Assembly: GCF_963576675.1 (NCBI RefSeq)
Contig: NC_088910.1
Location: 101,088,807 to 101,152,806 of the forward strand
Direction: 5' to 3'
Origin: Euphorbia lathyris
Taxonomy: Eukaryota > Streptophyta > Magnoliopsida > Malpighiales > Euphorbiaceae
Length of the DNA stretch: 64,000 nucleotides
Shown here: piece after piece, positions 11,223 to 49,624 of the stretch
Numbering within the stretch: position 1 is the stretch's first letter
Layout: every line of letters begins with the position of its first letter
The notes under the pieces: model-generated
What the model was told of the DNA's origin: nothing
The model's database searches: none
Seen by the model: only the letters and a program-made list of their open reading frames with translations
Made by a program: the position numbers and the translations under genes

Positions 11223-11264
11223 CGTGACATCAAGATGTATATCCGCATCCATTAACCCAAGATT

Positions 11265-13016: not shown

Positions 13017-13090
13017 TACTCCCACTTGGACTAAAGCCAATTGTTTCTACAACTTATCCCAGTAGAAGTTAGATGACGATCATGTACTTT

Positions 13091-15335: not shown

Positions 15336-15368
15336 ATATAAGAAATGCCTTTCAGAAGTTCTATCTAC

Positions 15369-17241: not shown

Positions 17242-17408
17242 GGGATGCCATTTCACATCCATGCACCATCCCCATCACGGAAGATAAAATTATCCTCATC
17301 CTTATCCCATGGAAATTCTTATCGGTGATTCCACATCCCCGTCGGGGACGGAAAATCCCCGCCCCACTTGCATCCCTACGTGACATCAAGATGTATATCC
17401 GCATCCAA
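17242..17408. repeat. Second copy of the 3' part of the 10.6 kb MITE and its flank
   Basis: GGGATGCCATTTCACATCCA at 17242 onward repeats 11086-11251 almost exactly, including the MITE terminus CATCCCTA and 23 further bases of flanking DNA (through ATATCCGCATCCA). The MITE fragment starts immediately after the LTR end at 17241. Confidence 0.9.
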
Positions 17409-19160: not shown

Positions 19161-20230
19161 ATGGATCCTTATGATGAATATAGTCAATATTTCTCATACG
19201 TTGCAAATTCTCAAAACACCGAAAATACAAGCTCACAAAGTCCTCCAATCCGACCTATTCCAAGAAATATTCAATATGATCCTCATATGTCACATTCCAC
19301 GACTCATTCGTTATACTATAATCCAAACAGTTATAGTCAGCCACCGATTGCAGTAGGTAATCGTCCAGTGATGTCAGGATACTTTCTTCGTACCCCGTAT
19401 CCTCAAGAACCATATACGGTTCCTGAAAATACGAGAAGAGACAGTTTTGGATCGTCGACCAAGCCAAACGAATCTCCGAACACCGGTTCTGTTGCCGAGT
19501 CTGAAGTTCCAATAGTTCGGGAACCAAATGCAAACAATAAAAAATCAACGAAAATGAAATGGACCAATGTACGTGATGTACATTTATGCCAGAGTTGGCT
19601 GATAATAACCACAGATCCAATTGTGGTACAGATCAAGTGAGGAGGGATTATTGGAAGAAAATTCCAAGTTACTATAATCAGTGGAAAAAGGAAGGTCCTG
19701 ATGTGAATGACCAAACAGCTTCATATCATTGGTACAAAATTAGTAAGGATGTATCTGGTTTCCATGGAGGATACACTACCATTAGGGAGAGCCACCCAAG
19801 CGGTCACGATGAAGCACAAGTAATTAATAAGGCTAATAAGCTATTTACTCAAAGATGTAATAAAAAATTTACTTATATGCATTGTTGGGAAATCCTCAAA
19901 GGACAGCCTAAGTGGCATAAGTTTTCGGATAAAAACAAAGCACAAGGTTCTTTAAAAAGAACAAAAAATTCTGCTTCAGGTGCCTACACTTCTTCAGGCT
20001 CAGCTCAGGAGGCAACTGAGGGTGGAACACACGAAGCGGTCGAACAACGTCCAATTGATCAAACAACGCCCATAGTTTCTGATGAAATTCAACATGGACC
20101 TGTTCCGGATTTTGCTGCTTATCTCGCAAGAGATTTACAAATCCGCGATAGAAACATGCACGGTCAACTAAAATTGGATCTAGTTGAGCACATTTGGAAA
20201 CGTTTCAGAATCACTGACCTTACTACTTGA
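19161..20230 (+). pseudogene. PIF/Harbinger ORF1 (Myb/SANT-like) protein, frameshifted
   Basis: Two overlapping frames: 19161-19640 (Ser/Pro/Tyr-rich N-terminus, then KMKWTNVRDVHLCQSWLIIT) and 19586-20230 (GTDQVRRDYWKKIPSYYNQW, SYHWYKISKDVSGFHGGY, HCWEILKGQPKW). Together they are the trihelix/SANT-like ORF1 protein of plant PIF elements, often annotated as NAM-associated or glutathione S-transferase T3-like. The normal order needs a shift near 19618-19625. A 63-bp duplication/insertion truncates the C-terminus at 20230. A TATA-like TATAAATACAT lies at 19083-19093. Confidence 0.8.
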
Positions 20231-24255: not shown

Positions 24256-24586
24256 CCCACTATTGATGAGTAATTAAGCAAATCGCAACAAAATAATATC
24301 GTAACATGAAGTTTATAACAAATTATTTATCATGAATTAAAAATGTGAACTTTGCCTCCTTATCCAATAGCCAGTTATGTCGATTGACTGACAAACATAG
24401 GAAATACCAAAAGATCATAATTTATCTACCACAATTCGGAAAAAAATCCTCTGTCCCGAATTTTCTGTCTCATTCTCTGTCCCCCATTCAATTTTTGACA
24501 CTTGTCCCTTTTATCTTACTTTATTACTACTAACTATGATTAGATATACTTAACTTTCGTTAAAGTGTAGTTAAAGGGACACGTAT
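24256..24586. other. Host DNA between Pack-MULE and viral integration
   Basis: About 330 bp of ordinary AT-rich sequence with no gene seen. It is the left host flank of the endogenous pararetrovirus. Confidence 0.6.
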
Positions 24587-24646
24587 CAAAAATGATATAT
24601 GCCCTTACAGGTAATCATCATATCAGAAAACAAAATGATAGGGATA
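24587..24646 (+). pseudogene. Viral MP stub forming the fold-back
   Basis: Sixty bases identical to 38847-38906 (interior of MP), followed directly by the reverse complement of 38912 downwards. The two arms make a spacer-free palindrome centred at 24646/24647. Confidence 0.92.
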
Positions 24647-25337
24647 CTAATATATCCCTATCATTTTGTTTTCTGATATGATGATTACCTGTAAGGGCAT
24701 ATATCATTTTTGTTTCTATACTAATTACTTTACTTCCTGGGGGCATTCTTATTCCTTCTAATTTATAATAGAGTGTTAAAGCTAGATCTTTATGTTTATC
24801 TTCTAATGAGATACTAAAATCTGGTTGAATTGTGAATTTAAGTTTCTGATAAATTAAGTTTCCTCTTACTACTGCTATTAAGGCATCTTGGATATTATCT
24901 AATATTCTATCATCTAATACATATATTTGAATAGGAGTATCGATATTTTTCTGAAAATATGCTTTTATAGTGAATTCTATTCCTCCAAAGTAAATATTCC
25001 TATATTTCTTTGCTTCTTTATGTGATAATTTGGATAATTCTCTTTTTATTACGTCATTTGTTATTAAATTTATCCTTGCTCTACCATTTATAGTAGTTGT
25101 ATCTATAATATTCTCATGCTTCTGAACAATATATCGTATATTTTTATTTCTCTCAAACCATTTTGTTTTAAATATCTTATTTACAGATAGCTCTTCAGTT
25201 TCATCTTGTATTTTCTGATAAATATCTGGTTTAAAACTTAAAGTTTGAGTTATACCACCTTCATAAGTATCCATTTGATAGTAGATATTAGTATTTTCTG
25301 TATGGGTTTGTTCTGTTATTTCTTTATTCTCTTCCAT
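24647..25337 (-). pseudogene. Viral movement protein, 5' part (inverse copy)
   Basis: N-terminal 230 residues of the 30K-type movement protein, matching 38222-38912 with a Ser/Phe difference (RELSKL here, RELFKL there). The frame runs through the fold-back at 24647 and stops at 24618 in reversed MP sequence, so the C-terminal half is missing. The start codon overlaps the end of the preceding small ORF by 14 bases, as in the forward copy. Confidence 0.9.
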
Positions 25338-25647
25338 TGATTAAAGCTTGAATATGTCTGTAACTTTCAGTAATTATTTGTTTTTGAATTTCTATTGTCT
25401 CTTCTTGCTCTCTATGTTTTTCTTCTAATCGTTTTACTTCATCTTCTAAGTCAAAAACTCTTTTTTGTAATTTTATCTTTTCAATACGCTTAGCATCTAA
25501 AGCACCTTGTGCTACTTCTAATTGTCTATCTTTTAATTCCATAATTTGTAATGCTCTTCTACAACTTATAATATGTTGATTGATATCCTGATTATAAATT
25601 AATGGTTTTTCAGCAATAATCCTAAGACTTTCAACTGGTATATCCAT
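25324..25647 (-). CDS. Viral small ORF 2 (107 aa), inverse copy
   Basis: Identical in translation to the forward copy at 37912-38235. Coiled-coil-like composition, rich in Glu, Lys, Arg and Gln, with heptad-spaced Leu/Val in its second half (RVFDLEDEVKRLEEK). Function not recognised; by position it is one of the leader-proximal small ORFs of soymo/caulimovirus-type genomes. Confidence 0.7.
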   Translation of the reverse strand: MDIPVESLRIIAEKPLIYNQDINQHIISCRRALQIMELKDRQLEVAQGALDAKRIEKIKLQKRVFDLEDEVKRLEEKHREQEETIEIQKQIITESYRHIQALINGRE

Positions 25648-25650
25648 TAT

Positions 25651-25929
25651 CTAGTGTGTATAATTCTGAAAAATCACGATTGTGAAATTAATTAGGCATT
25701 TAATCATTTCTACTTTTCTTATTAACATTATATGCCTATTTAGATCACTAGTTCCTATATTAAGGAGATGTTGGTAATATTCTAATAATATAATTAATTT
25801 GCCTAATAGAATAGAAATTTCTAAACTATTGCTTAAATCTAATTCAATTATGCCGCTTGTAATTTTATCAACTGCTTTCCTATGAATATTAAGCTGTGAT
25901 GCAAACATACTGGTATATGAAGATGACAT
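25651..25929 (-). CDS. Viral small ORF 1 (92 aa), inverse copy
   Basis: Same protein as the forward copy at 37630-37908. It is the first ORF after the primer-binding site and ends 3 bases before the next ORF starts. Leu/Ile-rich, no recognised domain; function unknown. Confidence 0.7.
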   Translation of the reverse strand: MSSSYTSMFASQLNIHRKAVDKITSGIIELDLSNSLEISILLGKLIILLEYYQHLLNIGTSDLNRHIMLIRKVEMIKCLINFTIVIFQNYTH

Positions 25930-26784
25930 AGTGATTTCAAAAAGTTCTAACTATTTGTGAGATCCTTTGAAAGCTCTGATACCATTTTATGTGGACCGTT
26001 TTTTCTGATGTGTATAATGTGTGCAGGATCGCTCTTATGACCCTAAAAAGGGTAGGAAGACAAACGACTGCTGAAGTAAACATTGTTAAATGAAATTTAA
26101 CATCCATAATATATTAAACCTTTAAGTGTAACTAATGATAACAAATTAATTTAATTAGAACAAGAGTTATAGAGGAACTCTAGTATACCTTTCAAAGCAA
26201 TCCTCAGTGGAGACTTCTGAACTCTGCCTGACACCCTCTCATCATCATCATGGGTTATGGCTGTGTTCCAGCATCTCTACACACCTCTTGGATTCGTCTG
26301 AAGGCTAACTATTGTTGCTTTATAACTCTGGATCTTTTTAAACTAATATGCTATACGGAAGTTAAACTTAAGTAGTTAACAACTATGGATGCTAAAAGGG
26401 GAAGTTTAGAAAGCCATGGATATAGAGAGAAAGAAAGCTTTTATTGCTCAAAGCAAGTTATATCTCATACATCATATGTCTTCTCCTTATATAGGTAGAA
26501 GATCAAAGGTGAAATTACCAAAAAGGAGATTACATCATCACAAAAGTTAAAAGTACAAACTTTTAGGTTACACGTGTCGAATGCTTCTTATTTTGCTCTT
26601 CCACCTCAAGCTTTACATCTTGCCACTAATCTCTAATGTTTCCACCTCATGCTTCTTCTTTGGACACATGTCTCTTCATATCTTCATGTCTTGCCACGTG
26701 TTGATCTTATTGCCACCTTTTCTTTAGGTATTGACACCTCGTTCTTATATTTCTTATTTTTCTTATCCATTTTTATCTCATTTT
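25930..26784 (-). promoter_or_regulatory. Viral intergenic region, inverse copy
   Basis: Mirror of 36775-37629. Contains TATATAAG (minus strand, 26493-26486), AATAAA (26445-26440) and the primer-binding site. It would drive transcription leftwards, toward the Helitron. Confidence 0.8.
25973..25984 (-). other. tRNA-iMet primer-binding site, inverse copy
   Basis: TGGTATCAGAGC on the minus strand, complementary to the 3' end of plant initiator tRNA-Met, the standard minus-strand primer site of Caulimoviridae. Confidence 0.92.
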
Positions 26785-27885
26785 CTAAATAAATGGATCC
26801 TCCTCTTTTCTTGGATGGGCTTCTTCTTTGGGCCTTATGGAGTCAATATTCATGGGCTCAGGTCTTATGGGCTCAATTCTAATTAAACATGATTTTCTTG
26901 GGCCATATATAGATTCATAATGGGCTAATGTATCTGAACTATGTTTATATTTCTTATCCATCAATTTCGTATGCATTTCTATCAAAATTTGTTGACTCGT
27001 TTCATCACCCATTTCCATTAAATAGTTGATAGTTATCATTTCTTCAACTTCTCCATGATTCGATCTGGCTATTATAGCCACCTTTTTATTTCTAATATAG
27101 TCTTCGAGTCTACATTTGATCGTATGGATTCCATGTGCTCGTTTTTCTCCTAACCAAGATTTAAAATTTTCTAATTTGCATGGAATGTCCCATTGATGGT
27201 CGGAATTATCTACATCAATCTTAGTGTTTCTACCAGTCTTAAAAATCTGAGCAATTATTATCGGTTTCCCTTCTAAGTCCATAGCAGCATCAAAAATTTG
27301 AACACAAAATATTCCTCTTCCAAATCTTAATCCAAGTTCGTCAATGGATCTGGGTATGATAGATGGGAGTTTTGAAACACTATTAAGGCTCTCATCAGTC
27401 ATGACTTTGTCCAGAAATCCATATCGAAATAGTTTCTGAACAACATCTGGACTGCAGTCTTCTGAGCATATATACCTAGGGTATTTGGTCATCTTAATGG
27501 TTCTATATACGGTTTGACTCTTCTTATATGTAAAAAATTTCATGATATTCTTATATGCTTCTGTCATTTCTGGAGGGAATTGTATAACCTGGGAGGTTGT
27601 GATTTCTGATGAGTTCTGATTAATCAGCTTAGAATGGTTCAAGGTGGTGGCTCCTGAGAGTCCACTAGATGAAGTTGGCAGCTCAATTGGCTTCTTATGA
27701 AGATCTCCTAACAACTCATAAGATGATCTAGGAGTCATGGTTCGTATATTCTGATTGTTCTGAGACTGGAGTTTCTTGAGTTCTTCCTCAAGGTTGTCCA
27801 GAAAGTTCTCATGATTTCTGATCATTGCCAGCATCTGGCGGTTCTGATTTCTGATTTCTGATATTCGCTGGATCATTATCTCCAT
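26785..27885 (-). CDS. Viral transactivator/viroplasmin (TAV), inverse copy
   Basis: Open frame of 366 residues, identical in translation to 35674-36774. The N-terminal part is coiled-coil-like (NFLDNLEEELKKLQSQ), followed by a Ser/Thr-rich linker. A central domain (FCVQIFDAAMDLEG, IAQIFKTGRNTKID) fits the ORF VI transactivator/inclusion-body protein of caulimovirus-type genomes, which promotes reinitiation on polycistronic RNA. It overlaps the end of Pol by 77 bases, as in the forward copy. Confidence 0.8.
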   Translation of the reverse strand: MEIMIQRISEIRNQNRQMLAMIRNHENFLDNLEEELKKLQSQNNQNIRTMTPRSSYELLGDLHKKPIELPTSSSGLSGATTLNHSKLINQNSSEITTSQVIQFPPEMTEAYKNIMKFFTYKKSQTVYRTIKMTKYPRYICSEDCSPDVVQKLFRYGFLDKVMTDESLNSVSKLPSIIPRSIDELGLRFGRGIFCVQIFDAAMDLEGKPIIIAQIFKTGRNTKIDVDNSDHQWDIPCKLENFKSWLGEKRAHGIHTIKCRLEDYIRNKKVAIIARSNHGEVEEMITINYLMEMGDETSQQILIEMHTKLMDKKYKHSSDTLAHYESIYGPRKSCLIRIEPIRPEPMNIDSIRPKEEAHPRKEEDPFI

Positions 27886-29731
27886 TCCTGCTCAAAAAAT
27901 CAGCTAAGATATTTCGTTTTCCAGAGATAGGTTTAACAACAAAATTATAGCAATTGAAAAAACTTTGCCAATGCCTTCTTTTGTTCAATTCTGGTAGGGG
28001 ATCTATTTTATTTCTGATAAATGCTCCTACTTGTGTATTATCTGTTCTTATGATAAATTCTATAGGTAACAAATGATACCTAAATCCTTTAATTCCATTT
28101 TTAACAGCTAGTAATTCTTTTTCATTGATATGATAATTTTTCTCTGAGGGTTTCCAAGTTCCTGATCTATAGCCACATATTAAAGGAGTTTCTTTGTCTA
28201 TATCTTCTTTTCTATATGCGATGAGTACTGCTCCCCACCCGATATCACTAGCATCTGTATATAATTCTAATTGATCATTATCTTTAGGTAGTCTTAATTT
28301 TGGGAGAACTTTTACTGCTTCTTTTATTTTTCTTATAGTATCAGTGTGAGTTGTCGTCCATTCAAATACTTTATGTTTCTTAATTAGCTCTTGCAAGGGT
28401 TGTCGTAATTTTGGTAAGTCTTTTATATAATCTGATGCATAATTTATTATTCCTAGAAATTGTTGGACTTCTTTCTTAGTATCTAATTTTTCTTTAAAAT
28501 TTTCGATTCTAGTTACGATATGATCTTGTAGTTGTAATCCTTCACTATCTATTATATATCCTAAATATTCTATTTTATTTTTAAAGATTTCTGATTTCTT
28601 TTCAGATAAAAGGATTCCATGTTGTCGTACTGTTTTTATAAATGCATCTAGGTGCTGTAAATGGTCTGCTATATTATTGCTATAGATTAATATATCATCG
28701 ACATAAACTACACAGAAGTCATTTAATTTTCTAAATATCGTATCCATTCGTCGTTGAAATATCTGGGGTGCATTTTTCAAACCAAAAGGTAACACAATCC
28801 ATTCATAATGTCCTTGTGGTGCACTAAATGCTGTTAAAGGTCTTGATTCTTTAGTAAGCTTAATTTGCCAAAAGCCACTTTTACAATCAAATTTACTAAA
28901 CCACTTTTTTCCTGATAATCTATTAATTAAATTTCTCTTATAAGGTAAAAAATATCCATCAAAAATCGTTTTCTTATTTAGTTCTCGATAATCTATTACC
29001 ATTCTTGCTTTGCCTCTCTTTTGTTCGCTATGTTTTCTTACTAAGAATGCCGGGCTACTATGAGGGCTTTTACTTTCTTGAATTAATTTTAAGTCTAATA
29101 ATTCTTTTATTTGTATTTCAAATTCTTTTTGATCATCAGGACTATATCTTATTGGTCTAGTGCGAACAACATCATTAGGGTTTATGAGTTCTATCTTAGC
29201 ATATATCTTTTCTTTTTCCCACAACGTTATAGGGTTTTCTCCAAAGTTGATCTTTAAATGGTCTAAATATTTTTGTTTTAAAAGTTCTAAATTAGTATCT
29301 CTATTTGTTTTGATATTATGTATTGTGAGTGGATATAAAGGTAGGACGCGCTTAAGGATAATCCATTTATTACAAGGAGTTAAAAGACTTATGGTTTCAG
29401 GTTTGATTAGCTGGACTTTAAAGAAATCAAGAAAATTATTTCCTAATAATATATGTTGTTTCATATTATTTTCTTGATAAATTATGGGTAATCGAAAGAT
29501 TGTCTTGTTAAGTATTAATCTCATATTTTCGGCTATAATATCTAATTCTTTCATTTGTTCATTAAATCCTGTAACTCTGACCTTATGTCCTTTAGATCTT
29601 TTCCATTTATGGGAAACTAGTACATCTTGCTTCGCTAAACATATATCAGCTCCACTATCTATAAATATGCGGCGTTTTATAATCTTATTAGGTTTATATT
29701 CTACCGGTGCTTCTACATATATGGCTACCAT
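27809..29731 (-). CDS. Viral Pol: protease, reverse transcriptase, RNase H (inverse copy)
   Basis: Open frame of 640 residues. A retropepsin is at the N-terminus (FIDSGADICLA near residue 24, HILLGNNFLDFF near 91). RT follows (RMVIDYRELNKKT, FGLKNAPQIFQRRMD, YVDDILIYSN), then RNase H (ELYTDASDIGWGAVL, NEKELLAVKNGI, RTDNTQVGAF). This copy is the only uninterrupted Pol in the window. It starts at the base where the CP frame ends. Replication takes place on packaged pregenomic RNA; there is no integrase domain. Confidence 0.95.
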   Translation of the reverse strand: MVAIYVEAPVEYKPNKIIKRRIFIDSGADICLAKQDVLVSHKWKRSKGHKVRVTGFNEQMKELDIIAENMRLILNKTIFRLPIIYQENNMKQHILLGNNFLDFFKVQLIKPETISLLTPCNKWIILKRVLPLYPLTIHNIKTNRDTNLELLKQKYLDHLKINFGENPITLWEKEKIYAKIELINPNDVVRTRPIRYSPDDQKEFEIQIKELLDLKLIQESKSPHSSPAFLVRKHSEQKRGKARMVIDYRELNKKTIFDGYFLPYKRNLINRLSGKKWFSKFDCKSGFWQIKLTKESRPLTAFSAPQGHYEWIVLPFGLKNAPQIFQRRMDTIFRKLNDFCVVYVDDILIYSNNIADHLQHLDAFIKTVRQHGILLSEKKSEIFKNKIEYLGYIIDSEGLQLQDHIVTRIENFKEKLDTKKEVQQFLGIINYASDYIKDLPKLRQPLQELIKKHKVFEWTTTHTDTIRKIKEAVKVLPKLRLPKDNDQLELYTDASDIGWGAVLIAYRKEDIDKETPLICGYRSGTWKPSEKNYHINEKELLAVKNGIKGFRYHLLPIEFIIRTDNTQVGAFIRNKIDPLPELNKRRHWQSFFNCYNFVVKPISGKRNILADFLSRNGDNDPANIRNQKSEPPDAGNDQKS

Positions 29732-30494
29732 TAGTTATTAGTTTCACTATCTTCATATTCTATTGGTTCTAATTCTTCTGAGTTCTCACCTTCTGTTTCA
29801 GTAATATAAAATTCATCTTCTTTATGCCATTTATCATCGCTGGCTCTTATTTGTTCTAGACTCATTATAAATTCTGTTGTTCCTATATATTTGACACCTT
29901 TTTGTTTTAATTTAGGGCATTTATTAGCATAATGTCCTTTCTCATTACAATTCCAACATTTACATTCTGTAAGTTTAGCATTTTTATCCCTTAGTGGTCT
30001 TTCTCGTCTTTTCCTAAATTTTCGTTTATATCTAAATCTGTTCCGATTTTCGGGATTATTTTTATATCGTCTAAATCGTTTTCGTCGAAATCGTCCATTA
30101 TCATACTTGTTAGTATAAGACTTCTTATATGTCGGATTATGTCTATAAGTGCGATTAGGAGTATATCGTCTATATTTTCTCCTAATTTTATCATCACAAC
30201 CAAAAACTAACCGTTTTTCCGTGAATCCACATATTTCTCGTAACCCGAGTTTCTTATCCTTTTTAACCTTTTGTTGAACTCTATATTCTTCACATTTTCG
30301 CATAAGATAAGCTCGTAGTACTCTAATTCTTTCTCCTAATGTATTTTCTTTTGGTTCTAATTGAGTATATTCTTTTGAAACTTCTACGTTGTATGGGTTT
30401 GGTAAGTGGTCATAATATAGTTGTTGGTATATCAATCCTTCTTGTGGTAAAAACCTAGCTTCATAAAAGAACTTAGTAAAACTGATAGTATATT
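29731..30494 (-). pseudogene. Viral coat protein, 3' part (inverse copy)
   Basis: C-terminal about 250 residues of CP, with a strongly basic Arg/Lys/Tyr tract, a CCHC zinc knuckle (CKCWNCNEKGHYANKC) and an acidic C-terminus. It is cut off at the inversion joint, which corresponds to forward position 33064, so the N-terminal half is absent. The codon for the Tyr changed to a stop in the forward copy (33141) is intact here. Confidence 0.9.
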
Positions 30495-31081
30495 ATATTA
30501 GTACCAAAATTATATCAGGAAATATTAGAACCACTAGAACATAAGGAAAATTCCATCATAACAATACCAGACGAAATATGTATAGATTTTAATTCTAGAA
30601 AACTACAACCAATCCAGAAATTATTACCTAGGATAGAAGAAGGAAGGTTAAGTTTTAAGAAAGACATAATAAGACAACCGAGAACATTAGATTTATTACA
30701 TACATATTATGAAGATAAGTTACGAATAAAAGTAATATTATTTAATGAGCTACGAGCAACTGACTGTATAGCTGAAATTAATACAGGAACCAAAAGTTTA
30801 GTACATATTAGCCAAATAAATGAGAATAAATGTGAACTAATCGAACCACAAACTTATAACTGTCCAAATAGTACAAGAGAAATAATCATAACTAAAAGCA
30901 TAAGAATTAGATTTAAAATTCAAGATCTAGAATATGAGATAATTGTAGGAGTAACAGAATATGATAGTACATATGCACTATTATTAGGATACGACTTTTT
31001 AAATAAAATAAAATATAAGATAAATAATGAAGGAATTACGATAGAGGACCAAAACAAAATACGGTATATAAATAAAATATG
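30495..31081 (+). pseudogene. Viral movement protein, 3' part (forward, first unit)
   Basis: Matches 38906-39492 and continues the stub at 24587-24646, so MP is split here by the inverse copy. Encodes the C-terminal region, including the retropepsin-like INTGTKS...LLLGYDFL segment discussed under the intact copy. Confidence 0.9.
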
Positions 31082-31306
31082 AACATACGACAACAACTTG
31101 ATAAAAAAGAGAAAAAATTACAAATAATAAAAACTATTATGGCAGAGACAATCATAGAATCTCAACTAAAATATTTAGAAATTGAATCTAAACAACAGAG
31201 ACTAGAATGTGAAATCAAACAATTAAACTCTTTATTAGAACCACCTAAGAAAGAATGGATCAAACTTGAAGACGGATGGATAAAAAGAATCTACAAAGAT
31301 GAGTGA
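31079..31306 (+). CDS. Viral small ORF 3 (75 aa), first unit
   Basis: Starts in an ATGA overlap with the MP stop. Lys/Gln/Glu-rich, coiled-coil-like, no recognised domain. Same as 39490-39717. By position it corresponds to the ORF II slot between MP and CP. Confidence 0.75.
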   Translation: MNIRQQLDKKEKKLQIIKTIMAETIIESQLKYLEIESKQQRLECEIKQLNSLLEPPKKEWIKLEDGWIKRIYKDE

Positions 31307-31739
31307 TCCTAACCAAAAATTGGACCAAATATGGATAGAGATTGTAGCAAAAGAACAATTAAAGAATACTCTTAGTTTAATACAAGAAAACCATATTCAA
31401 ATCCAAGAAATGATAACACATGAATTAACAAAACTGTGGAATACATCGGAAATACCAACGTTTAAGATAATTTTGAAAAAATTAAACATGTTAGTAGCTA
31501 ATATAGACAAAAGAAAAAGACCCATAGAAGAAAGCTGTAGCATTACCTCAGGAGAAAATCTAAACATTACTATAACACAAACTAAAACTCCAGAAATAGT
31601 ACCCATAGATGCTTGGAGACGAAGCAAGGACCCAATAATGATGGATATAAGTGAAATAAAACCTAAAATCCCTACAACCGTAAATAAAACCTTAGATCTG
31701 TTAACCGATTTACACAAAAAAAGGACAATTCTAATCTAA
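31299..31739 (+). CDS. Viral small ORF 4 (146 aa), first unit
   Basis: Overlaps the preceding ORF by 8 bases. By position it fits the ORF III/virion-associated-protein slot; sequence similarity is not obvious. Relative to 39710-40144, one extra A near 31719-31725 shifts the last codons (KKRTILI instead of KKGQF), and the stop then overlaps the CP start. Confidence 0.75.
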   Translation: MSDPNQKLDQIWIEIVAKEQLKNTLSLIQENHIQIQEMITHELTKLWNTSEIPTFKIILKKLNMLVANIDKRKRPIEESCSITSGENLNITITQTKTPEIVPIDAWRRSKDPIMMDISEIKPKIPTTVNKTLDLLTDLHKKRTILI

Positions 31740-33827
31740 TGGCCGAACAAGAACATAGTGTAATAACATTTCTTAAAAATCACGCCCAAGAAATTATTGA
31801 AAAGGAAAAATACAAATATGAACCGCTAAAAAACAGCAAACTCAAAGACAATGATGCTAAACCATCCAATGTAGACGTAAGCACCGAAGCCGAATACCTT
31901 CAACTAAAAATCGAAAAACAACATAAAGAAATCAAAGACCTACAAAAAGAAAACATAAAATTAGTCATAAATTCGAGTACAGAATGGGTCGAAAAATATA
32001 AAAAATATAAACACAAATTTAAAAATACTAAAAAAGAATTAAAAGAAACAAAGCTAGAATTAAAACAAACAAAAACAGAGCTAATCCACATTACAGGTGA
32101 ATTAAACGAATTAAAGGAAGAAGTAAGAGTCTTAAGAACAATGGTTAAAGAAGTAAAAGGGAAAACTATTCACATCAGTAACAGTAGTAGTGATAGTTCA
32201 GATAGTTCAGATACTCAAAGTGAAAATAAACTAAAAATCATTGGGTATATAGAAGAAGAAAATAAAGATGAAACAAAATTAATAGAAGAAAATCATCAAA
32301 TAATGAAAGCATTAGAACAAATGAAGAACATTAATGCAATAATAGAAGAAGAACCAGAAAGTGATATAGAAAACAACGAATACAACAACAAATACACTAG
32401 GTATGAAGAATCAGATATAGGATCAGAAAATATAGTAAACAAAGATGCCGATAATTATCCAGAAGAAGAAATGATAGACCCCAATTTAGACGTAGTAACT
32501 AAAAGAGTACCTACGATTCCACAACATATACCTATAGGCCAACAAGGAGACTTTAAAGAATTTATAGGATCTATGTCTCAAGGATTAAATCCAAATGGAT
32601 ATTTTTTAGACTTAGATAATGTCTATGATGAACAAGAAATAAGTAGACGAATAAATGATTGGAATTTAGGAATGTACATAGCCTTAATGAATTCATCTCA
32701 CACTGAAAATTTAGACTATATGTATGACCTAATATCTAAAACAATGATAGGAAAAGTAGGATTTTGGATGGAATCAATAACTCATCAGTTAAGACCACAA
32801 ATAGAAGCTTGTGCTCATGATTGGAAATCAATGTTATTATTATTCGATATGGTATTAAAAAGAGAATTTTTAGGAGAAAGATGGTTAGTGGCTAGAGAAA
32901 CAGTATTTGCTGAAAGAAAAGCTGAAATAATAATGAATTTTAAAAAGAGAATTTTTAGGAGAAAGATGGTTAGTGGCTAGAGAAACAGTATTTGCTGAAA
33001 GAAAAGCTGAAATAATAATGAATTTGAATAACATGAAATGTTGTAAAATTAGTAAATTACCAGAATATACTATCAGTTTTACTAAGTTCTTTTATGAAGC
33101 TAGGTTTTTACCACAAGAAGGATTGATATACCAACAACTATAGTATGACCACTTACCAAACCCATACAACGTAGAAGTTTCAAAAGAATATACTCAATTA
33201 GAACCAAAAGAAAATACATTAGGAGAAAGAATTAGAGTACTACGAGCTTATCTTATGCGAAAATGTGAAGAATATAGAGTTCAACAAAAGGTTAAAAAGG
33301 ATAAGAAACTCGGGTTACGAGAAATATGTGGATTCACGGAAAAACGGTTAGTTTTTGGTTGTGATGATAAAATTAGGAGAAAATATAGACGATATACTCC
33401 TAATCGCACTTATAGACATAATCCGACATATAAGAAGTCTTATACTAACAAGTATGATAATGGACGATTTCGACGAAAACGATTTAGACGATATAAAAAT
33501 AATCCCGAAAATCGGAACAGATTTAGATATAAACGAAAATTTAGGAAAAGACGAGAAAGACCACTAAGGGATAAAAATACTAAACTTACAGAATGTAAAT
33601 GTTGGAATTGTAATGAGAAAGGACATTATGCTAATAAATGCTCTAAATTAAAACAAAAAGGTGTCAAATATATAGGAACAACAGAATTTATAATGAGTCT
33701 AGAACAAATAAGAGCCAGCGATGATAAATGGCATAAAGAAGATGAATTTTATATTACTGAAACAGAAGGTGAGAACTCAGAAGAATTAGAACCAATAGAA
33801 TATGAAGATAGTGAAACTAATAACTAA
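31739..33827 (+). pseudogene. Viral coat protein, disrupted (first unit)
   Basis: Acidic, coiled-coil N-terminal part with a Ser/Asp run (SSDSSDSSDTQSE), a core domain (FKEFIGSMSQGLNPNGYF), and a basic CCHC zinc-knuckle C-terminus. An 85-bp direct tandem duplication (32861-32945 repeated from 32946) shifts the frame, which ends at 32980. A TAG at 33141-33143 replaces a Tyr codon that is intact in the inverse copy. The downstream frame 33255-33827 carries the zinc knuckle. Coat proteins of this family package the viral DNA. Confidence 0.9.
32861..33030 (+). repeat. 85-bp tandem duplication inside CP
   Basis: AGAGAATTTTTAGGAGAAAG occurs at 32861 and 32946, and the two 85-bp copies are nearly identical. 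85 is not a multiple of 3, so CP is frameshifted. It also enlarges the apparent unit length (8411 bp). Confidence 0.93.
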
Positions 33828-35750
33828 TGGTAGCCATATATGTAGAAGCACCGGTAGAATATAAACCTAATAAGATTATAAAACGCCGCATATTTATAGA
33901 TAGTGGAGCTGATATATGTTTAGCGAAGCAAGATGTACTAGTTTCCCATAAATGGAAAAGATCTAAAGGACATAAGGTCAGAGTTACAGGATTTAATGAA
34001 CAAATGAAAGAATTAGATATTATAGCCGAAAATATGAGATTAATACTTAACAAGACAATCTTTCGATTACCCATAATTTATCAAGAAAATAATATGAAAC
34101 AACATATATTATTAGGAAATAATTTTCTTGATTTCTTTAAAGTCCAGCTAATCAAACCTGAAACCATAAGTCTTTTAACTCCTTGTAATAAATGGATTAT
34201 CCTTAAGCGCGTCCTACCTTTATATCCACTCACAATACATAATATCAAAACAAATAGAGATACTAATTTAGAACTTTTAAAAACAAAAATATTTAGACCA
34301 TTTAAAGATCAACTTTGGAGAAAACCCTATAACGTTGTGGGAAAAAGAAAAGATATATGCTAAGATAGAACTCATAAACCCTAATGATGTTGTTCGCACT
34401 AGACCAATAAGATATAGTCCTGATGATCAAAAGGAATTTGAAATACAAATAAAAGAATTATTAGACTTAAAATTAATTCAAGAAAGTAAAAGCCCTCATA
34501 GTAGCCCGGCATTCTTAGTAAGAAAACATAGCGAACAAAAGAGAGGCAAAGCAAGAATGGTAATAGATTATCGAGAACTAAATAAGAAAACGATTTTTGA
34601 TGGATATTTTTTACCTTATAAGAGAAATTTAATTAATAGATTATCAGGAAAAAAGTGGTTTAGTAAATTTGATTGTAAAAGTGGCTTTTGGCAAATTAAG
34701 CTTACTAAAGAATCAAGACCTTTAACAGCATTTAGTGCACCACAAGGACATTATGAATGGATTGTGTTACCTTTTGGTTTGAAAAATGCACCCCAGATAT
34801 TTCAACGACGAATGGATACGATATTTAGAAAATTAAATGACTTCTGTGTAGTTTATGTCGATGATATATTAATCTATAGCAATAATATAGCAGACCATTT
34901 ACAGCACCTAGATGCATTTATAAAAACAGTACGACAACATGGAATCCTTTTATCTGAAAAGAAATCAGAAATCTTTAAAAATAAAATAGAATATTTAGGA
35001 TATATAATAGATAGTGAAGGATTACAACTACAAGATCATATCGTAACTAGAATCGAAAATTTTAAAGAAAAATTAGATACTAAGAAAGAAGTCCAACAAT
35101 TTCTAGGAATAATAAATTATGCATCAGATTATATAAAAGACTTACCAAAATTACGACAACCCTTGCAAGAGCTAATTAAGAAACATAAAGTATTTGAATG
35201 GACGACAACTCACACTGATACTATAAGAAAAATAAAAGAAGCAGTAAAAGTTCTCCCAAAATTAAGACTACCTAAAGATAATGATCAATTAGAATTATAT
35301 ACAGATGCTAGTGATATCGGGTGGGGAGCAGTACTCATCGCATATAGAAAAGAAGATATAGACAAAGAAACTCCTTTAATATGTGGCTATAGATCAGGAA
35401 CTTGGAAACCCTCAGAGAAAAATTATCATATCAATGAAAAAGAATTACTAGCTGTTAAAAATGGAATTAAAGGATTTAGGTATCATTTGTTACCTATAGA
35501 ATTTATCATAAGAACAGATAATACACAAGTAGGAGCATTTATCAGAAATAAAATAGATCTCCTACCAGAATTGAACAAAAGAAGGCATTGGCAAAGTTTT
35601 TTCAATTGCTATAATTTTGTTGTTAAACCTATCTCTGGAAAACGAAATATCTTAGCTGATTTTTTGAGCAGGAATGGAGATAATGATCCAGCGAATATCA
35701 GAAATCAGAAATCAGAACCGCCAGATGCTGGCAATGATCAGAAATCATGA
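33827..35750 (+). pseudogene. Viral Pol with one-base frameshift (forward copy)
   Basis: Same protease-RT-RNase H protein as 29731-27809. One additional A in an A-run (34279-34283, five A here, four in the inverse copy) splits it into frames 33827-34363 and 34335-35750. The protease and RT/RNase H parts each remain open. A Leu replaces Pro near the C-terminus (IDLLPELN against IDPLPELN). Confidence 0.93.
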
Positions 35751-36774
35751 GAACTTTCTGGACAACCTTGAGGAAGAACTCAAGAAACTCCAGTCTCAGA
35801 ACAATCAGAATATACGAACCATGACTCCTAGATCATCTTATGAGTTGTTAGGAGATCTTCATAAGAAGCCAATTGAGCTGCCAACTTCATCTAGTGGACT
35901 CTCAGGAGCCACCACCTTGAACCATTCTAAGCTGATTAATCAGAACTCATCAGAAATCACAACCTCCCAGGTTATACAATTCCCTCCAGAAATGACAGAA
36001 GCATATAAGAATATCATGAAATTTTTTACATATAAGAAGAGTCAAACCGTATATAGAACCATTAAGATGACCAAATACCCTAGGTATATATGCTCAGAAG
36101 ACTGCAGTCCAGATGTTGTTCAGAAACTATTTCGATATGGATTTCTGGACAAAGTCATGACTGATGAGAGCCTTAATAGTGTTTCAAAACTCCCATCTAT
36201 CATACCCAGATCCATTGACGAACTTGGATTAAGATTTGGAAGAGGAATATTTTGTGTTCAAATTTTTGATGCTGCTATGGACTTAGAAGGGAAACCGATA
36301 ATAATTGCTCAGATTTTTAAGACTGGTAGAAACACTAAGATTGATGTAGATAATTCCGACCATCAATGGGACATTCCATGCAAATTAGAAAATTTTAAAT
36401 CTTGGTTAGGAGAAAAACGAGCACATGGAATCCATACGATCAAATGTAGACTCGAAGACTATATTAGAAATAAAAAGGTGGCTATAATAGCCAGATCGAA
36501 TCATGGAGAAGTTGAAGAAATGATAACTATCAACTATTTAATGGAAATGGGTGATGAAACGAGTCAACAAATTTTGATAGAAATGCATACGAAATTGATG
36601 GATAAGAAATATAAACATAGTTCAGATACATTAGCCCATTATGAATCTATATATGGCCCAAGAAAATCATGTTTAATTAGAATTGAGCCCATAAGACCTG
36701 AGCCCATGAATATTGACTCCATAAGGCCCAAAGAAGAAGCCCATCCAAGAAAAGAGGAGGATCCATTTATTTAG
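35674..36774 (+). CDS. Viral transactivator/viroplasmin (TAV), forward copy
   Basis: 366 residues, identical in translation to the inverse copy, with coiled-coil-like N-terminus and the central ORF VI-type domain (GFLDKVMTDESLNSV, FGRGIFCVQIFDAAMD). Overlaps the 3' end of Pol by 77 bases in another frame. TAV presence separates this virus from badna-, tungro- and petu-type members. Confidence 0.8.
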   Translation: MEIMIQRISEIRNQNRQMLAMIRNHENFLDNLEEELKKLQSQNNQNIRTMTPRSSYELLGDLHKKPIELPTSSSGLSGATTLNHSKLINQNSSEITTSQVIQFPPEMTEAYKNIMKFFTYKKSQTVYRTIKMTKYPRYICSEDCSPDVVQKLFRYGFLDKVMTDESLNSVSKLPSIIPRSIDELGLRFGRGIFCVQIFDAAMDLEGKPIIIAQIFKTGRNTKIDVDNSDHQWDIPCKLENFKSWLGEKRAHGIHTIKCRLEDYIRNKKVAIIARSNHGEVEEMITINYLMEMGDETSQQILIEMHTKLMDKKYKHSSDTLAHYESIYGPRKSCLIRIEPIRPEPMNIDSIRPKEEAHPRKEEDPFI

Positions 36775-37065
36775 AAAATGAGATAAAAATGGATAAGAAA
36801 AATAAGAAATATAAGAACGAGGTGTCAATACCTAAAGAAAAGGTGGCAATAAGATCAACACGTGGCAAGACATGAAGATATGAAGAGACATGTGTCCAAA
36901 GAAGAAGCATGAGGTGGAAACATTAGAGATTAGTGGCAAGATGTAAAGCTTGAGGTGGAAGAGCAAAATAAGAAGCATTCGACACGTGTAACCTAAAAGT
37001 TTGTACTTTTAACTTTTGTGATGATGTAATCTCCTTTTTGGTAATTTCACCTTTGATCTTCTACC

Positions 37066-37073
37066 TATATAAG
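37066..37073 (+). promoter_or_regulatory. Viral TATA box
   Basis: CTATATAAGGAGAAGG in the intergenic region, closely resembling caulimovirus 35S-type core promoters. Transcription would start about 25-30 bases downstream. Confidence 0.75.
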
Positions 37074-37113
37074 GAGAAGGCATATGATGTATGAGATATA
37101 ACTTGCTTTGAGC

Positions 37114-37119
37114 AATAAA
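37114..37119 (+). terminator. Viral poly(A) signal AATAAA
   Basis: GAGCAATAAAAGC 48 bases downstream of the TATA box. It lies close to the predicted start site, so terminal redundancy of the pregenomic RNA would be short unless the first passage is bypassed. Confidence 0.65.
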
Positions 37120-37574
37120 AGCTTTCTTTCTCTCTATATCCATGGCTTTCTAAACTTCCCCTTTTAGCATCCATAGTTGTTAACTACTTAAGTTTAACTT
37201 CCGTATAGCATATTAGTTTAAAAAGATCCAGAGTTATAAAGCAACAATAGTTAGCCTTCAGACGAATCCAAGAGGTGTGTAGAGATGCTGGAACACAGCC
37301 ATAACCCATGATGATGATGAGAGGGTGTCAGGCAGAGTTCAGAAGTCTCCACTGAGGATTGCTTTGAAAGGTATACTAGAGTTCCTCTATAACTCTTGTT
37401 CTAATTAAATTAATTTGTTATCATTAGTTACACTTAAAGGTTTAATATATTATGGATGTTAAATTTCATTTAACAATGTTTACTTCAGCAGTCGTTTGTC
37501 TTCCTACCCTTTTTAGGGTCATAAGAGCGATCCTGCACACATTATACACATCAGAAAAAACGGTCCACATAAAA

Positions 37575-37586
37575 TGGTATCAGAGC
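37575..37586 (+). other. tRNA-iMet primer-binding site, forward copy
   Basis: TGGTATCAGAGC, the complement of the plant initiator tRNA-Met 3' end, 44 bases before the first small ORF. Defines the conventional origin of the viral map. Confidence 0.93.
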
Positions 37587-37629
37587 TTTCAAAGGATCTC
37601 ACAAATAGTTAGAACTTTTTGAAATCACT

Positions 37630-37908
37630 ATGTCATCTTCATATACCAGTATGTTTGCATCACAACTTAATATTCATAGGAAAGCAGTTGATAAAATTAC
37701 AAGCGGCATAATTGAATTAGATTTAAGCAATAGTTTAGAAATTTCTATTCTATTAGGCAAATTAATTATATTATTAGAATATTACCAACATCTCCTTAAT
37801 ATAGGAACTAGTGATCTAAATAGGCATATAATGTTAATAAGAAAAGTAGAAATGATTAAATGCCTAATTAATTTCACAATCGTGATTTTTCAGAATTATA
37901 CACACTAG
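37630..37908 (+). CDS. Viral small ORF 1 (92 aa)
   Basis: First ORF after the primer site. Leu/Ile-rich, possibly helical; no recognised family. Identical in the inverse copy. Ends 3 bases before the next ORF. Confidence 0.7.
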   Translation: MSSSYTSMFASQLNIHRKAVDKITSGIIELDLSNSLEISILLGKLIILLEYYQHLLNIGTSDLNRHIMLIRKVEMIKCLINFTIVIFQNYTH

Positions 37909-37911
37909 ATA

Positions 37912-38235
37912 ATGGATATACCAGTTGAAAGTCTTAGGATTATTGCTGAAAAACCATTAATTTATAATCAGGATATCAATCAACATATTATAAGTTGTAG
38001 AAGAGCATTACAAATTATGGAATTAAAAGATAGACAATTAGAAGTAGCACAAGGTGCTTTAGATGCTAAGCGTATTGAAAAGATAAAATTACAAAAAAGA
38101 GTTTTTGACTTAGAAGATGAAGTAAAACGATTAGAAGAAAAACATAGAGAGCAAGAAGAGACAATAGAAATTCAAAAACAAATAATTACTGAAAGTTACA
38201 GACATATTCAAGCTTTAATCAATGGAAGAGAATAA
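37912..38235 (+). CDS. Viral small ORF 2 (107 aa)
   Basis: Predicted helical, with coiled-coil second half (KRIEKIKLQKRVFDLEDEV). Overlaps the MP start by 14 bases. Function unknown; present unchanged in both copies. Confidence 0.7.
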   Translation: MDIPVESLRIIAEKPLIYNQDINQHIISCRRALQIMELKDRQLEVAQGALDAKRIEKIKLQKRVFDLEDEVKRLEEKHREQEETIEIQKQIITESYRHIQALINGRE

Positions 38236-39493
38236 AGAAATAACAGAACAAACCCATACAGAAAATACTAATATCTACTATCAAATGGATACTTATGAAG
38301 GTGGTATAACTCAAACTTTAAGTTTTAAACCAGATATTTATCAGAAAATACAAGATGAAACTGAAGAGCTATCTGTAAATAAGATATTTAAAACAAAATG
38401 GTTTGAGAGAAATAAAAATATACGATATATTGTTCAGAAGCATGAGAATATTATAGATACAACTACTATAAATGGTAGAGCAAGAATAAATTTAATAACA
38501 AATGACGTAATAAAAAGAGAATTATTCAAATTATCACATAAAGAAGCAAAGAAATATAGGAATATTTACTTTGGAGGAATAGAATTCACTATAAAAGCAT
38601 ATTTTCAGAAAAATATCGATACTCCTATTCAAATATATGTATTAGATGATAGAATATTAGATAATATCCAAGATGCCTTAATAGCAGTAGTAAGAGGAAA
38701 CTTAATTTATCAGAAACTTAAATTCACAATTCAACCAGATTTTAGTATCTCATTAGAAGATAAACATAAAGATCTAGCTTTAACACTCTATTATAAATTA
38801 GAAGGAATAAGAATGCCCCCAGGAAGTAAAGTAATTAGTATAGAAACAAAAATGATATATGCCCTTACAGGTAATCATCATATCAGAAAACAAAATGATA
38901 GGGATATATTAGTACCAAAATTATATCAGGAAATATTAGAACCACTAGAACATAAGGAAAATTCCATCATAACAATACCAGACGAAATATGTATAGATTT
39001 TAATTCTAGAAAACTACAACCAATCCAGAAATTATTACCTAGGATAGAAGGAGGAAGGTTAAGTTTTAAGAAAGACATAATAAGACAACCGAGAACATTA
39101 GATTTATTACATACATATTATGAAGATAAGTTACGAATAAAAGTAATATTATTTAATGAGCTACGAGCAACTGACTGTATAGCTGAAATTAATACAGGAA
39201 CCAAAAGTTTAGTACATATTAGCCAAATAAATGAGAATAAATGTGAACTAATCGAACCACAAACTTATAACTGTCCAAATAGTACAAGAGAAATAATCAT
39301 AACTAAAAGCATAAGAATTAGATTTAAAATTCAAGATCTAGAATATGAGATAATTGTAGGAGTAACAGAATATGATAGTACATATGCACTATTATTAGGA
39401 TACGACTTTTTAAATAAAATAAAATATAAGATAAATAATGAAGGAATTACGATAGAGGACCAAAACAAAATACGGTATATAAATAAAATATGA
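38222..39493 (+). CDS. Viral movement protein with retropepsin-like C-terminal domain
   Basis: 423 residues, the only complete MP in the window. The N-terminal about 240 residues fit the 30K-superfamily movement proteins that line plasmodesmal tubules (RARINLITNDVIKRE, YIVQKHENIIDTTTING, IALV-type core). It is longer than typical MPs of about 300-330 residues. The extra C-terminal region (about 290-420) reads VILFNELRATDCIAEINTGT and ALLLGYDFLNKI. This resembles the DTG...LLG.DFL layout of a retropepsin, with Asn in place of the catalytic Asp. The domain reading is my inference. Confidence 0.85.
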   Translation: MEENKEITEQTHTENTNIYYQMDTYEGGITQTLSFKPDIYQKIQDETEELSVNKIFKTKWFERNKNIRYIVQKHENIIDTTTINGRARINLITNDVIKRELFKLSHKEAKKYRNIYFGGIEFTIKAYFQKNIDTPIQIYVLDDRILDNIQDALIAVVRGNLIYQKLKFTIQPDFSISLEDKHKDLALTLYYKLEGIRMPPGSKVISIETKMIYALTGNHHIRKQNDRDILVPKLYQEILEPLEHKENSIITIPDEICIDFNSRKLQPIQKLLPRIEGGRLSFKKDIIRQPRTLDLLHTYYEDKLRIKVILFNELRATDCIAEINTGTKSLVHISQINENKCELIEPQTYNCPNSTREIIITKSIRIRFKIQDLEYEIIVGVTEYDSTYALLLGYDFLNKIKYKINNEGITIEDQNKIRYINKI

Positions 39494-39717
39494 ACATACG
39501 ACAACAACTTGATAAAAAAGAGAAAAAATTACAAATAATAAAAACTATTATGGCAGAGACAATCATAGAATCTCAACTAAAATATTTAGAAATTGAATCT
39601 AAACAACAGAGACTAGAATGTGAAATCAAACAATTAAACTCTTTATTAGAACCACCTAAGAAAGAATGGATCAAACTTGAAGACGGATGGATAAAAAGAA
39701 TCTACAAAGATGAGTGA
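39490..39717 (+). CDS. Viral small ORF 3 (75 aa), second unit
   Basis: Direct-repeat copy of 31079-31306; starts in the ATGA overlap with the MP stop. Coiled-coil-like, function unknown. Confidence 0.75.
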   Translation: MNIRQQLDKKEKKLQIIKTIMAETIIESQLKYLEIESKQQRLECEIKQLNSLLEPPKKEWIKLEDGWIKRIYKDE

Positions 39718-40144
39718 TCCTAACAAAAAATTGGACCAAATATGGATAGAGATTGTAGCAAAAGAACAATTAAAGAATACTCTTAGTTTAATACAAGAAA
39801 ACCATATTCAAATCCAAGAAATGATAACACATGAATTAACAAAACTGTGGAATACATCGGAAATACCAACGTTTAAGATAATTTTGGAAAAATTAAACAT
39901 GTTAGTAGCTAATATAGACAAAAGAAAAAGACCCATAGAAGAAAGCTGTAGCATTACCTCAGGAGAAAATCTAAACATTACTATAACACAAACTAAAACT
40001 CCAGAAATAGTACCCATAGATGCTTGGAGACGAAGCAAGGACCCAATAATGATGGATATAAGTGAAATAAAACCTAAAATCCCTACAACCGTAAATAAAA
40101 CCTTAGATCTGTTAACCGATTTACACAAAAAAGGACAATTCTAA
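39710..40144 (+). CDS. Viral small ORF 4 (144 aa), second unit
   Basis: Copy of 31299-31739 with a Lys/Gln difference near the start and without the extra A, so it ends KKGQF four bases before the CP start. Position suggests the virion-associated/ORF III slot. Confidence 0.75.
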   Translation: MSDPNKKLDQIWIEIVAKEQLKNTLSLIQENHIQIQEMITHELTKLWNTSEIPTFKIILEKLNMLVANIDKRKRPIEESCSITSGENLNITITQTKTPEIVPIDAWRRSKDPIMMDISEIKPKIPTTVNKTLDLLTDLHKKGQF

Positions 40145-40148
40145 TCTA

Positions 40149-41080
40149 ATGGCCGAACAAGAACATAGTGTAATAACATTTCTTAAAAATCACGCCCAAG
40201 AAATTATTGAAAAGGAAAAATACAAATATGAACCGCTAAAAAACAGCAAACTCAAAGACAATGATGCTAAACCATCCAATGTAGACGTAAGCACCGAAGC
40301 CGAATACCTTCAACTAAAAATCGAAAAACAACATAAAGAAATCAAAGACCTACAAAAAGAAAACATAAAATTAGTCATAAATTCGAGTACAGAATGGGTC
40401 GAAAAATATAAAAAATATAAACACAAATTTAAAAATACTAAAAAAGAATTAAAGAAACAAAGCTAGAATTAAAACAAACAAAAACAGAGCTAATCCACAT
40501 TACAGGTGAATTAAAAGAATTAAAGGAAGAAGTAAGAGTCTTAAGAACAATGGTTAAAGAAGTAAAAGGGAAAACTATTCACATCAGTAACAGTAGTAGT
40601 GATAGTTCAGATAGTTCAGATACTCAAAGTGAAAATAAACTAAAAATCATTGGGTATATAGAAGAAGAAAATAAAGATGAAACAAAATTAATAGAAGAAA
40701 ATCATCAAATAATGAAAGCATTAGAACAAATGAAGAACATTAATGCAATAATAGAAGAAGAACCAGAAAGTGATATAGAAAACAACGAATACAACAACAA
40801 ATACACTAGGTATGAAGAATCAGATATAGGATCAGAAAATATAGTAAACGAAGATGCCGATAATTATCCAGAAGAAGAAATGATAGACCCCAATTTAGAC
40901 GTAGTAACTAAAAGAGTACCTACGATTCCACAACATATACCTATAGGCCAACAAGGAGACTTTAAAGAATTTATAGGATCTATGTCTCAAGGATTAAATC
41001 CAAATGGATATTTTTTAGACTTAGATAATGTCTATGATGAACAAGAAATAAGTAGACGAATAAATGATTGGAATTTAGGA
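40149..41080 (+). pseudogene. Viral coat protein, frameshifted and truncated (second unit)
   Basis: Copy of the CP 5' half. One A is missing near 40447-40452 relative to 32037-32043, which stops the frame at 40466; an inner frame resumes at 40550. The copy ends at 41080 within GACWNLG-equivalent sequence, where viral DNA meets the host. The core and zinc knuckle are absent. Confidence 0.9.
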
Positions 41081-41093
41081 ATGAACAAGAAAT
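41081..41093 (+). other. Templated filler at the virus-host joint
   Basis: ATGAACAAGAAAT at 41081-41093 is an exact copy of 41037-41049, 44 bases upstream in viral sequence, inserted between the viral end and host DNA. Such short local copies are typical of polymerase-theta-type end joining. Confidence 0.75.
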
Positions 41094-46396: not shown

Positions 46397-46745
46397 ACAA
46401 CTTCAACTGACATTGACATTGAATCATTCTAATGGCTAACCCATGGACAATCACTTCTTCATATTGGAGAGCAAAACAGAAAACAAATTCACTGTTTGTG
46501 GTGGAAAATGTTTAGCAGAAACTCAGTGATCTGTTCATATTTATTACTTTTAAAACATGATCAAAATATATGGATCAAGTTGCATTGTTTGTGGCGTGCC
46601 AATATGTATCTAGTAATTGAATATTTGATACTCAATCTAGTGAAGATCATTCTCTCTAATTTCTATTGGCATGCACATGTGACATTGTTGGAGTAAAGAA
46701 GAGCAAAAAGAAATGACAAATAAGGGAGAAAAAAATTTGGAATTG
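46397..46745. other. Intergenic between DUF1997 gene and tRNA
   Basis: Contains the 3' flank of the DUF1997 gene. The AAAAAAATTT at 46729-46738 is, on the minus strand, a T-run placed as the Pol III terminator of the tRNA gene. Confidence 0.55.
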
Positions 46746-46818
46746 TGGAGATGCGGGGGATCGAACCCCGTACCTCTCGCATGCAAAGCGAGCGCTCTAC
46801 CATTTGAGCTACATCCCC
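46746..46818 (-). tRNA. tRNA-Ala (anticodon UGC)
   Basis: 73 nt on the minus strand, GGGGATGTAGCTCAAATGGT at the 5' end, anticodon stem CTCGC/GCGAG enclosing TTTGCAT (anticodon TGC), B-box GGTTCGATCCC, acceptor stem GGGGATG pairing with CATCTCC and discriminator A. No intron, and CCA is not encoded, as expected for a nuclear gene. A T-run follows within 15 bases. Confidence 0.96.
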
Positions 46819-49512: not shown

Positions 49513-49624
49513 ATGTGGGGAGCAGCAGATTAGAACGTTTTGTCCTAGAACTCAACATACAGCATTTCAGCCTAAAACATGGTATTTGCTTACAGTCTGC
49601 TTGGATGAAAGTTTGAGCGGGTAG

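Follow-up and report, generated by a model that had tools for sequence, protein, structure and literature searches.

A long viral inverted repeat in the genome of Euphorbia lathyris: probable fold-back copying within an endogenous caulimovirid

Introduction

Inverted repeats of viral origin are known from both tomato and soybean. In tomato, rearranged endogenous caulimovirids (ECVs; also called endogenous pararetroviruses or EPRVs) arranged as inverted repeats are associated with dense 22-nt small interfering RNA (siRNA) and can trigger the degradation of matching transcripts, whilst in soybean, inverted repeats derived from caulimovirids and from transposable elements go together with DCL2-dependent 22-nt RNAs; both cases are taken from passages of a 2023 review (PMC10377300), which also cover tandem arrays of ECVs and loci of endogenous banana streak virus (eBSV) with fragments in opposite directions. 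Parts of a 2018 review (PMC6256188) describe a further soybean locus, an inverted repeat of cucumber mosaic virus (CMV) RNA1 located downstream of a long terminal repeat (LTR) Copia promoter, in which siRNAs arise from the repeat only. For tomato, EPRV pieces in inverted and duplicated form had been described in 2007 (excerpts of PMC1899175). Here, we describe a 5.85-kb inverted repeat lying within a viral insert at positions 24587–41087 of a 64,000-nt stretch of the Euphorbia lathyris genome (contig NC_088910.1, positions 101,088,807 to 101,152,806 of the forward strand; hereafter ‘the window’, to which all coordinates refer).

Our reading of this locus, to which we assign a probability of roughly two in three, is that the insert is a recently endogenised caulimovirid (a plant pararetrovirus), that its inverted repeat arose by fold-back / template-switch copying inside a viral array, and that the locus is a passive one with no selected function.

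Results

Self-comparison of the window by BLAST pairs 24645–30494 with the reverse complement of 33064–38914 (minus, 38914 to 33064) over 5,851 columns at 99.83% identity, with 9 mismatches and 1 gap; a match far above the level expected by chance, and in agreement with an earlier note on this DNA, which had reported a near-perfect inverted repeat at coordinates correct to within 2 bp. The nine substitutions are scattered along the alignment. Two further features were absent from that note. The first is a direct repeat, pairing 30494–32678 with 38905–41087 (2,185 columns, 99.63% identity, 6 mismatches, 2 gaps), whose start-to-start distance of 8,411 bp we take as one viral unit; the second, a perfect 60-bp palindrome located at the left edge of the insert (24587–24646 / 24653–24712; 100% identity, 6-nt spacer).

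Reading the insert from its left border (non-viral/viral at 24586/24587), and numbering unit positions from the primer site, we see a plus-oriented 60-bp scrap of virus (24587–24646; unit 1273–1332), which forms the outer half of the palindrome and is an exact, plus-oriented copy of 38847–38906. Next comes arm A (24645–30494, minus strand), in our reading the inserted fold-back copy, which runs from unit 1340 down to 3901 by way of the origin. It is followed by a head-to-tail viral copy of ~1.26 units (30494–41087, plus), which starts at unit 1331, makes a full round, and continues to 3513 at the right border (~41087). Within this plus copy, the section complementary to arm A is arm B (33064–38914, plus). 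Between the two arms lies a 2,569-bp spacer (30495–33063, plus), itself viral, containing the 3′ part of the movement protein (MP) gene, small open reading frames (ORFs) and the 5′ part of the coat protein (CP) gene; 2.18 kb of it recurs at 38905–41087, with the remainder sitting between the repeated part and arm B. If the minus piece is omitted, the plus piece becomes continuous, with a 2-bp overlap, and amounts to ~1.27 units. No BLAST match connects the 14.0–24.6 kb and 41.1–52.0 kb flanks as repeats, and visual inspection of the border sequences shows no target-site duplication.

The junctions carry most of the argument for how the repeat arose. The break ends map to unit positions 1331, 1332 and 1340, all within 9 nt; the chance of three random points falling so close together on an 8,411-nt circle is ~4e-6, a figure calculated post hoc. 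The minus segment begins 8 nt past the break at unit 1331/1332, with microhomology at the junctions, judged by eye, of two shared bases on entry and one on exit. We propose that the viral array broke, either at the time of integration or afterwards; that repair of the break by fold-back / template switch copied the viral unit in reverse; and that the reverse copy then rejoined the original site, such that a single event would yield the inverted repeat. The 60-bp palindrome at the outer end, itself a fold-back structure, also counts in favour of this origin. Each arm encodes the identical 366-aa protein (100% by tblastn in both cases), as against 9/366 differences in another E. lathyris copy, which is what one would expect had both arms come from one viral source.

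The same junctions bear on a rival origin, co-integration, in which two separate molecules of viral DNA would have inserted together in opposite orientations. Strand discontinuities are places at which the ends of viral DNA can recur. At the shared break, however, there is neither a primer site nor a purine run (of at least 13 nt, with at least 3 G): the primer site lies at 37575 and the nearest qualifying purine run at 39046–39058, compared with breaks at 38905–38914, so that an origin from strand discontinuities is unsupported. According to sections of PMC10377300, ECVs often occur as tandem arrays or in rearranged form, which to that extent favours co-integration; against it, the two molecules would have to share one end point, and the minus arm interrupts a plus scrap and a plus copy that are otherwise continuous. 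We regard co-integration as very improbable.

Selection for pairing would be expected to keep the two arms closer to each other than the copies of the direct repeat are. The arms differ at 9/5851 positions versus 6/2185 for the direct repeat (Fisher p=0.26, with low power), and there is therefore no evidence for selection; the earlier proposal that selection for hairpin function keeps the arms alike is thus unsupported. Taken together, the arms and direct repeat show 15 substitutions in 8,036 aligned columns which, at a substitution rate of 7e-9 per site per year, corresponds to an age of ~1.3e5 years, a rough estimate only. On our reading, no function has been selected and the locus would be a passive, probably silenced, insertion.

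Consistent with a passive locus, the best promoter-like sites in the insert point outwards. The intergenic region of arm B (36775–37620) contains the motif TATA[AT]A twice on the plus strand (37066 and 37235), and the longer TATATAAG only once, at 37066 (+). This TATA-like site and the AATAAA downstream of it at 37114 (together 37066–37119, plus) face right, away from arm A, whilst the mirror pair in arm A (26440–26493, minus; AATAAA at 26445) faces left, away from arm B. The layout, with a TATA-like site, AATAAA and then the primer site (37575), follows the usual order. Assuming a start ~31 nt downstream of the TATA-like site, transcription would begin near 37.10 kb running right, and near 26.46 kb running left; both predicted viral transcripts would run outward in the viral sense, with neither spanning both arms. 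The earlier note had held that promoters inside each arm would produce long double-stranded RNA (dsRNA). This does not follow, because in both arms the strongest TATA candidate is directed outward and neither outward transcript crosses both arms; what does hold, given the structure of the repeat, is that any transcript spanning both arms would be self-complementary. To judge from the sequence, a long hairpin could form, but would require transcription entering rightwards over 24587, leftwards over 41087, or from an inward cryptic start.

Several points weigh against a fold-back origin and a passive locus. As regards structure, a plain inversion within a longer head-to-tail viral array, accompanied by a 2,561-bp deletion, is a candidate, since the inner junction pairs unit positions 1340 and 1331, which become nearly contiguous once the arm is flipped back. 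Even so, such an inversion needs a second event, its left break must by chance hit a second viral copy at an identical position, and the 60-bp scrap is left unexplained by the inversion itself; we consider it distinctly unlikely. The ‘recent inversion’ put forward earlier as the cause of the near-identity of the arms is thus better recast, with the junctions fitting a fold-back copy at one site better than they fit plain inversion.

The assembly, too, has to be considered, since some consensus errors are possible: three single-base length differences between the viral copies all fall in A runs of 3–7, and a host pentatricopeptide repeat (PPR) gene at 47636–49512 (minus; related to At5g15340) has a frame change near residue 504, making it either a pseudogene or the site of a consensus error. 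Both observations, together with the error-prone nature of long near-identical repeats, would favour an assembly artefact, whether through a palindromic chimeric read or a mis-joined repeat. A fold-back read artefact would show symmetric flanks. Here, the outer flanks are unlike each other (host on the left; more virus and then host on the right), nine substitutions are scattered over the arms, and a 2.57-kb spacer separates them; an artefact of this kind seems to us highly improbable.

The remaining points concern transcription. TATA and transcription start calls were made by motif only, and not all sites point outward: a single minus-strand TATA[AT]A in the intergenic region, at 37071 and overlapping that at 37066 on the plus strand, points inward, as do 13 plus-strand copies in the left and 6 minus-strand copies in the right 2-kb host flank (raw counts). 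One of the six on the right, a TATATAAG at 41240 (minus), lies ~150 bp beyond the right border and points into the insert. These inward motifs, found in both host flanks, and the length and near-identity of the arms, favour an active hairpin, in which inward transcripts would form a 5.85-kb dsRNA, to be processed by DCL2/DCL4 (and DCL3) into siRNAs silencing the virus lineage, by analogy with what has been proposed for the transcriptionally competent siRNA areas (TSAs) of tomato. Two precedents lend weight to this, each as far as portions of the reviews go: the tomato inverted-repeat ECVs, which with their dense 22-nt siRNA degrade matching transcripts (PMC10377300), and the soybean CMV RNA1 repeat, with its 0.5-kb spacer and siRNAs from the repeat only (PMC6256188).

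Against an active hairpin stand the outward orientation of the best viral promoter-like sites and the fact that the inward sites are motifs alone, short TATA motifs being common in AT-rich DNA; the AT content is 76% in the left flank (22.0–24.6 kb) and 62% in the right (41.1–42.5 kb). Furthermore, the arms are not significantly better conserved than the control direct repeat, and a single viral_contigs scan based on the Pol ORF gave 12 pattern stretches, none of which was confirmed as a relative (records from this genome possibly being excluded). A role in virus-silencing immunity is possible as far as the DNA goes, but we think an active hairpin unlikely. An ORF with a NAM-associated domain (19586–20230, plus) reads toward the insert and ends ~4.4 kb away from it; it is a conceivable source of inward transcription.

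The 60-bp palindrome merits separate comment. Treated as RNA, 24587–24712 has a predicted fold of -100.4 kcal/mol, compared with a shuffled mean of -25.1 (z -21.6), and it lies ~1.75 kb downstream of the predicted start in arm A, with four AATAAA hexamers in between. Minus-strand RNA of the palindrome could, on this folding model, serve as a separate short hairpin precursor. An imperfect inverted repeat at 24491–24593 (33 nt, 79%) reaches 7 nt past the left border into the insert and is perhaps the end of a small transposon at the site of integration. In the most elaborate scheme that we considered, one fold-back event would have created a heritable hairpin targeting an as yet undescribed lineage of caulimovirids in Euphorbia: outside transcription would pass through both arms, the arm A promoter would feed the separate 60-bp hairpin (24587–24712), and the resulting siRNAs would silence the whole lineage. 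We hold this to be quite improbable.

The viral identity of the insert is supported by its gene content, for which Pfam bears out the earlier assignments of movement protein, Pol domains and coat protein. The features expected of a caulimovirid are all present: an A3 protease, reverse transcriptase (RT) and RNase H; MP and CP, the latter with a zinc knuckle; a primer site; and a junction with host DNA. The MP ORF (38222–39493, plus) matches MP at 1.5e-34, with partial copies located by tblastn at 24618–25337 (minus) and about 30495–31079 (plus). In arm A, Pol is an open ORF of 640 aa (27809–29731, minus; Pfam, ORF list and tblastn), with matches to Peptidase_A3 (1.5e-11), RVT_1 (1.3e-41) and RNase H (1.2e-20), whilst its arm B counterpart is divided over two reading frames (ORF lists, tblastn). 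The 3′ part of CP, with the zinc knuckle, is found at 29731–30492 (minus) in arm A, the coat matches being Caulimovir_coat_dom at 1.3e-06 and zf-CCHC at 2.1e-04; in the arm B counterpart (33144–33827) the zinc-knuckle score is below the Pfam cut-off. A spacer ORF at 31739–32980 (plus) is assigned to the 5′ part of CP by position only, having no match above the Pfam cut-off, and the reading frame shifts between it and the CP ORF of arm B. The frame changes in arm B Pol and CP may represent true decay or consensus errors, the latter being possible because the length differences fall in A runs and the host PPR gene also has a frame change.

A 12-mer at 37575–37586 (plus) in arm B, with its mirror at 25973 (minus), we take to be a tRNA-Met-type primer-binding site. 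A matching primer-site motif is described for tomato EPRVs in part of PMC1899175. Beyond the insert, two more copies of the tRNA-Met-type 12-mer lie at 53670 and 58728 (plus), perhaps as the primer sites of LTR retrotransposons.

Each arm also contains a 366-aa ORF at the position expected for the transactivator (TAV): 26785–27885 (minus) in arm A and 35674–36774 (plus) in arm B (ORF list, tblastn). The earlier claim of TAV in the arms can be kept as regards the presence of an ORF at that position, whereas the name is positional only, with no viroplasmin match listed by Pfam for the window ORF, nor any viroplasmin among the 25 of 36 Pfam families displayed for eight aligned members of the 366-aa family. 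This alignment (the window ORF and P0001–P0007) has 32 invariant columns in its eight rows. An assignment as TAV by solved structure was set aside, the two matches being weak (E 0.033 and 0.86) and not convincing; the AlphaFold model of the ORF is itself weak, with a mean predicted local distance difference test (pLDDT) score of 52. Judged on sequence, the 366-aa family is possibly a divergent or an unrelated TAV. Its arm A member is identical to another Euphorbia lathyris protein at 357/366 residues; going by these nine differences, a second, diverged copy of this virus is present in E. lathyris.

To place the virus amongst its relatives, we used an RT tree of 49 rows, comprising the window and 48 of the 120 proteins listed among 303 found. 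The smallest fully supported set that includes the window contains only three other proteins, all unnamed, at 77–81% identity; the closest named virus among the rows of the tree is Metaplexis yellow mottle-associated virus (51%), and identity with tobacco vein clearing virus (TVCV) is 47%. We do not claim a genus, because the tree had no rows labelled soymo-, cavemo-, xendo- or wendovirus. No Euphorbia ECV of this kind is evident among the titles and abstract openings listed by literature searches, and Euphorbia is not mentioned in the main text of PMC9794742.

The insert adjoins plant DNA, with the PPR gene (best match a Euphorbia peplus relative, at 82% identity) and a Copia ORF in its flanks; within the window, tblastn with four viral ORFs gave no match outside the insert. 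The Copia ORF belongs to a Ty1-copia type element at 11086–17407, comprising an RVT_2 ORF (13091–14452, minus), an SH3-like ORF (14462–15100, minus) and flanking repeats of 97–98% identity. Short direct repeats of about 94–99.6% identity occur at 1119–1812, 6827–7313, 49624–50395 and 57684–60354. ARAGORN places a tRNA-Ala (TGC) gene at 46745–46818 (minus); a tRNA is also the only Rfam match in the window at gathering thresholds.

Discussion

Were siRNAs to be made from this locus, the range of inverted-repeat ECV silencing loci would extend from tomato and soybean to the spurges, with a young example whose origin can be traced at the level of single bases, and which would illustrate how one repair event can make a potential silencing hairpin out of inserted virus. 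If no siRNAs are made, then the locus serves as a warning: hairpin RNA cannot be taken for granted wherever the DNA contains a long inverted repeat of virus, because viral promoters can face outward.

The closest parallels are the tomato TSAs (Valli et al., as related in part of PMC10377300), which likewise consist of a caulimovirid inverted repeat with a potential hairpin transcript. There, 22-nt siRNAs and target silencing have been reported, whereas for the E. lathyris locus they are a possibility, and its best promoter-like sites face outward; virus and host also differ. The soybean CMV RNA1 repeat (Da Fonseca et al. 2016, as cited in a section of PMC6256188) is similarly a long viral inverted repeat with a spacer, at 3.4 kb compared with 5.85 kb here; in E. 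lathyris, though, the spacer consists of viral sequence, and the window's Copia ORF (13091–14452, minus) reads away from the insert.

In its overall architecture, the insert combines features seen in other ECVs, as covered by parts of PMC10377300: the head-to-tail array of endogenous petunia vein clearing virus (ePVCV) in petunia, here of 1.26 units, and the fragments duplicated in opposite directions of banana eBSV. Unlike infective eBSV/ePVCV, its frames, as assembled, are partly interrupted and its RT tree provides no link to a named genus. The LycEPRVs of tomato, according to excerpts of PMC1899175, also present truncated, inverted and duplicated EPRV pieces beside plant DNA, but are TVCV-like, whereas the RT of the E. 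lathyris insert is 47% identical to TVCV. That EPRV inverted repeats may act as silencing loci is thus a published concept; to it, the E. lathyris locus adds a new candidate, probably in a new host.

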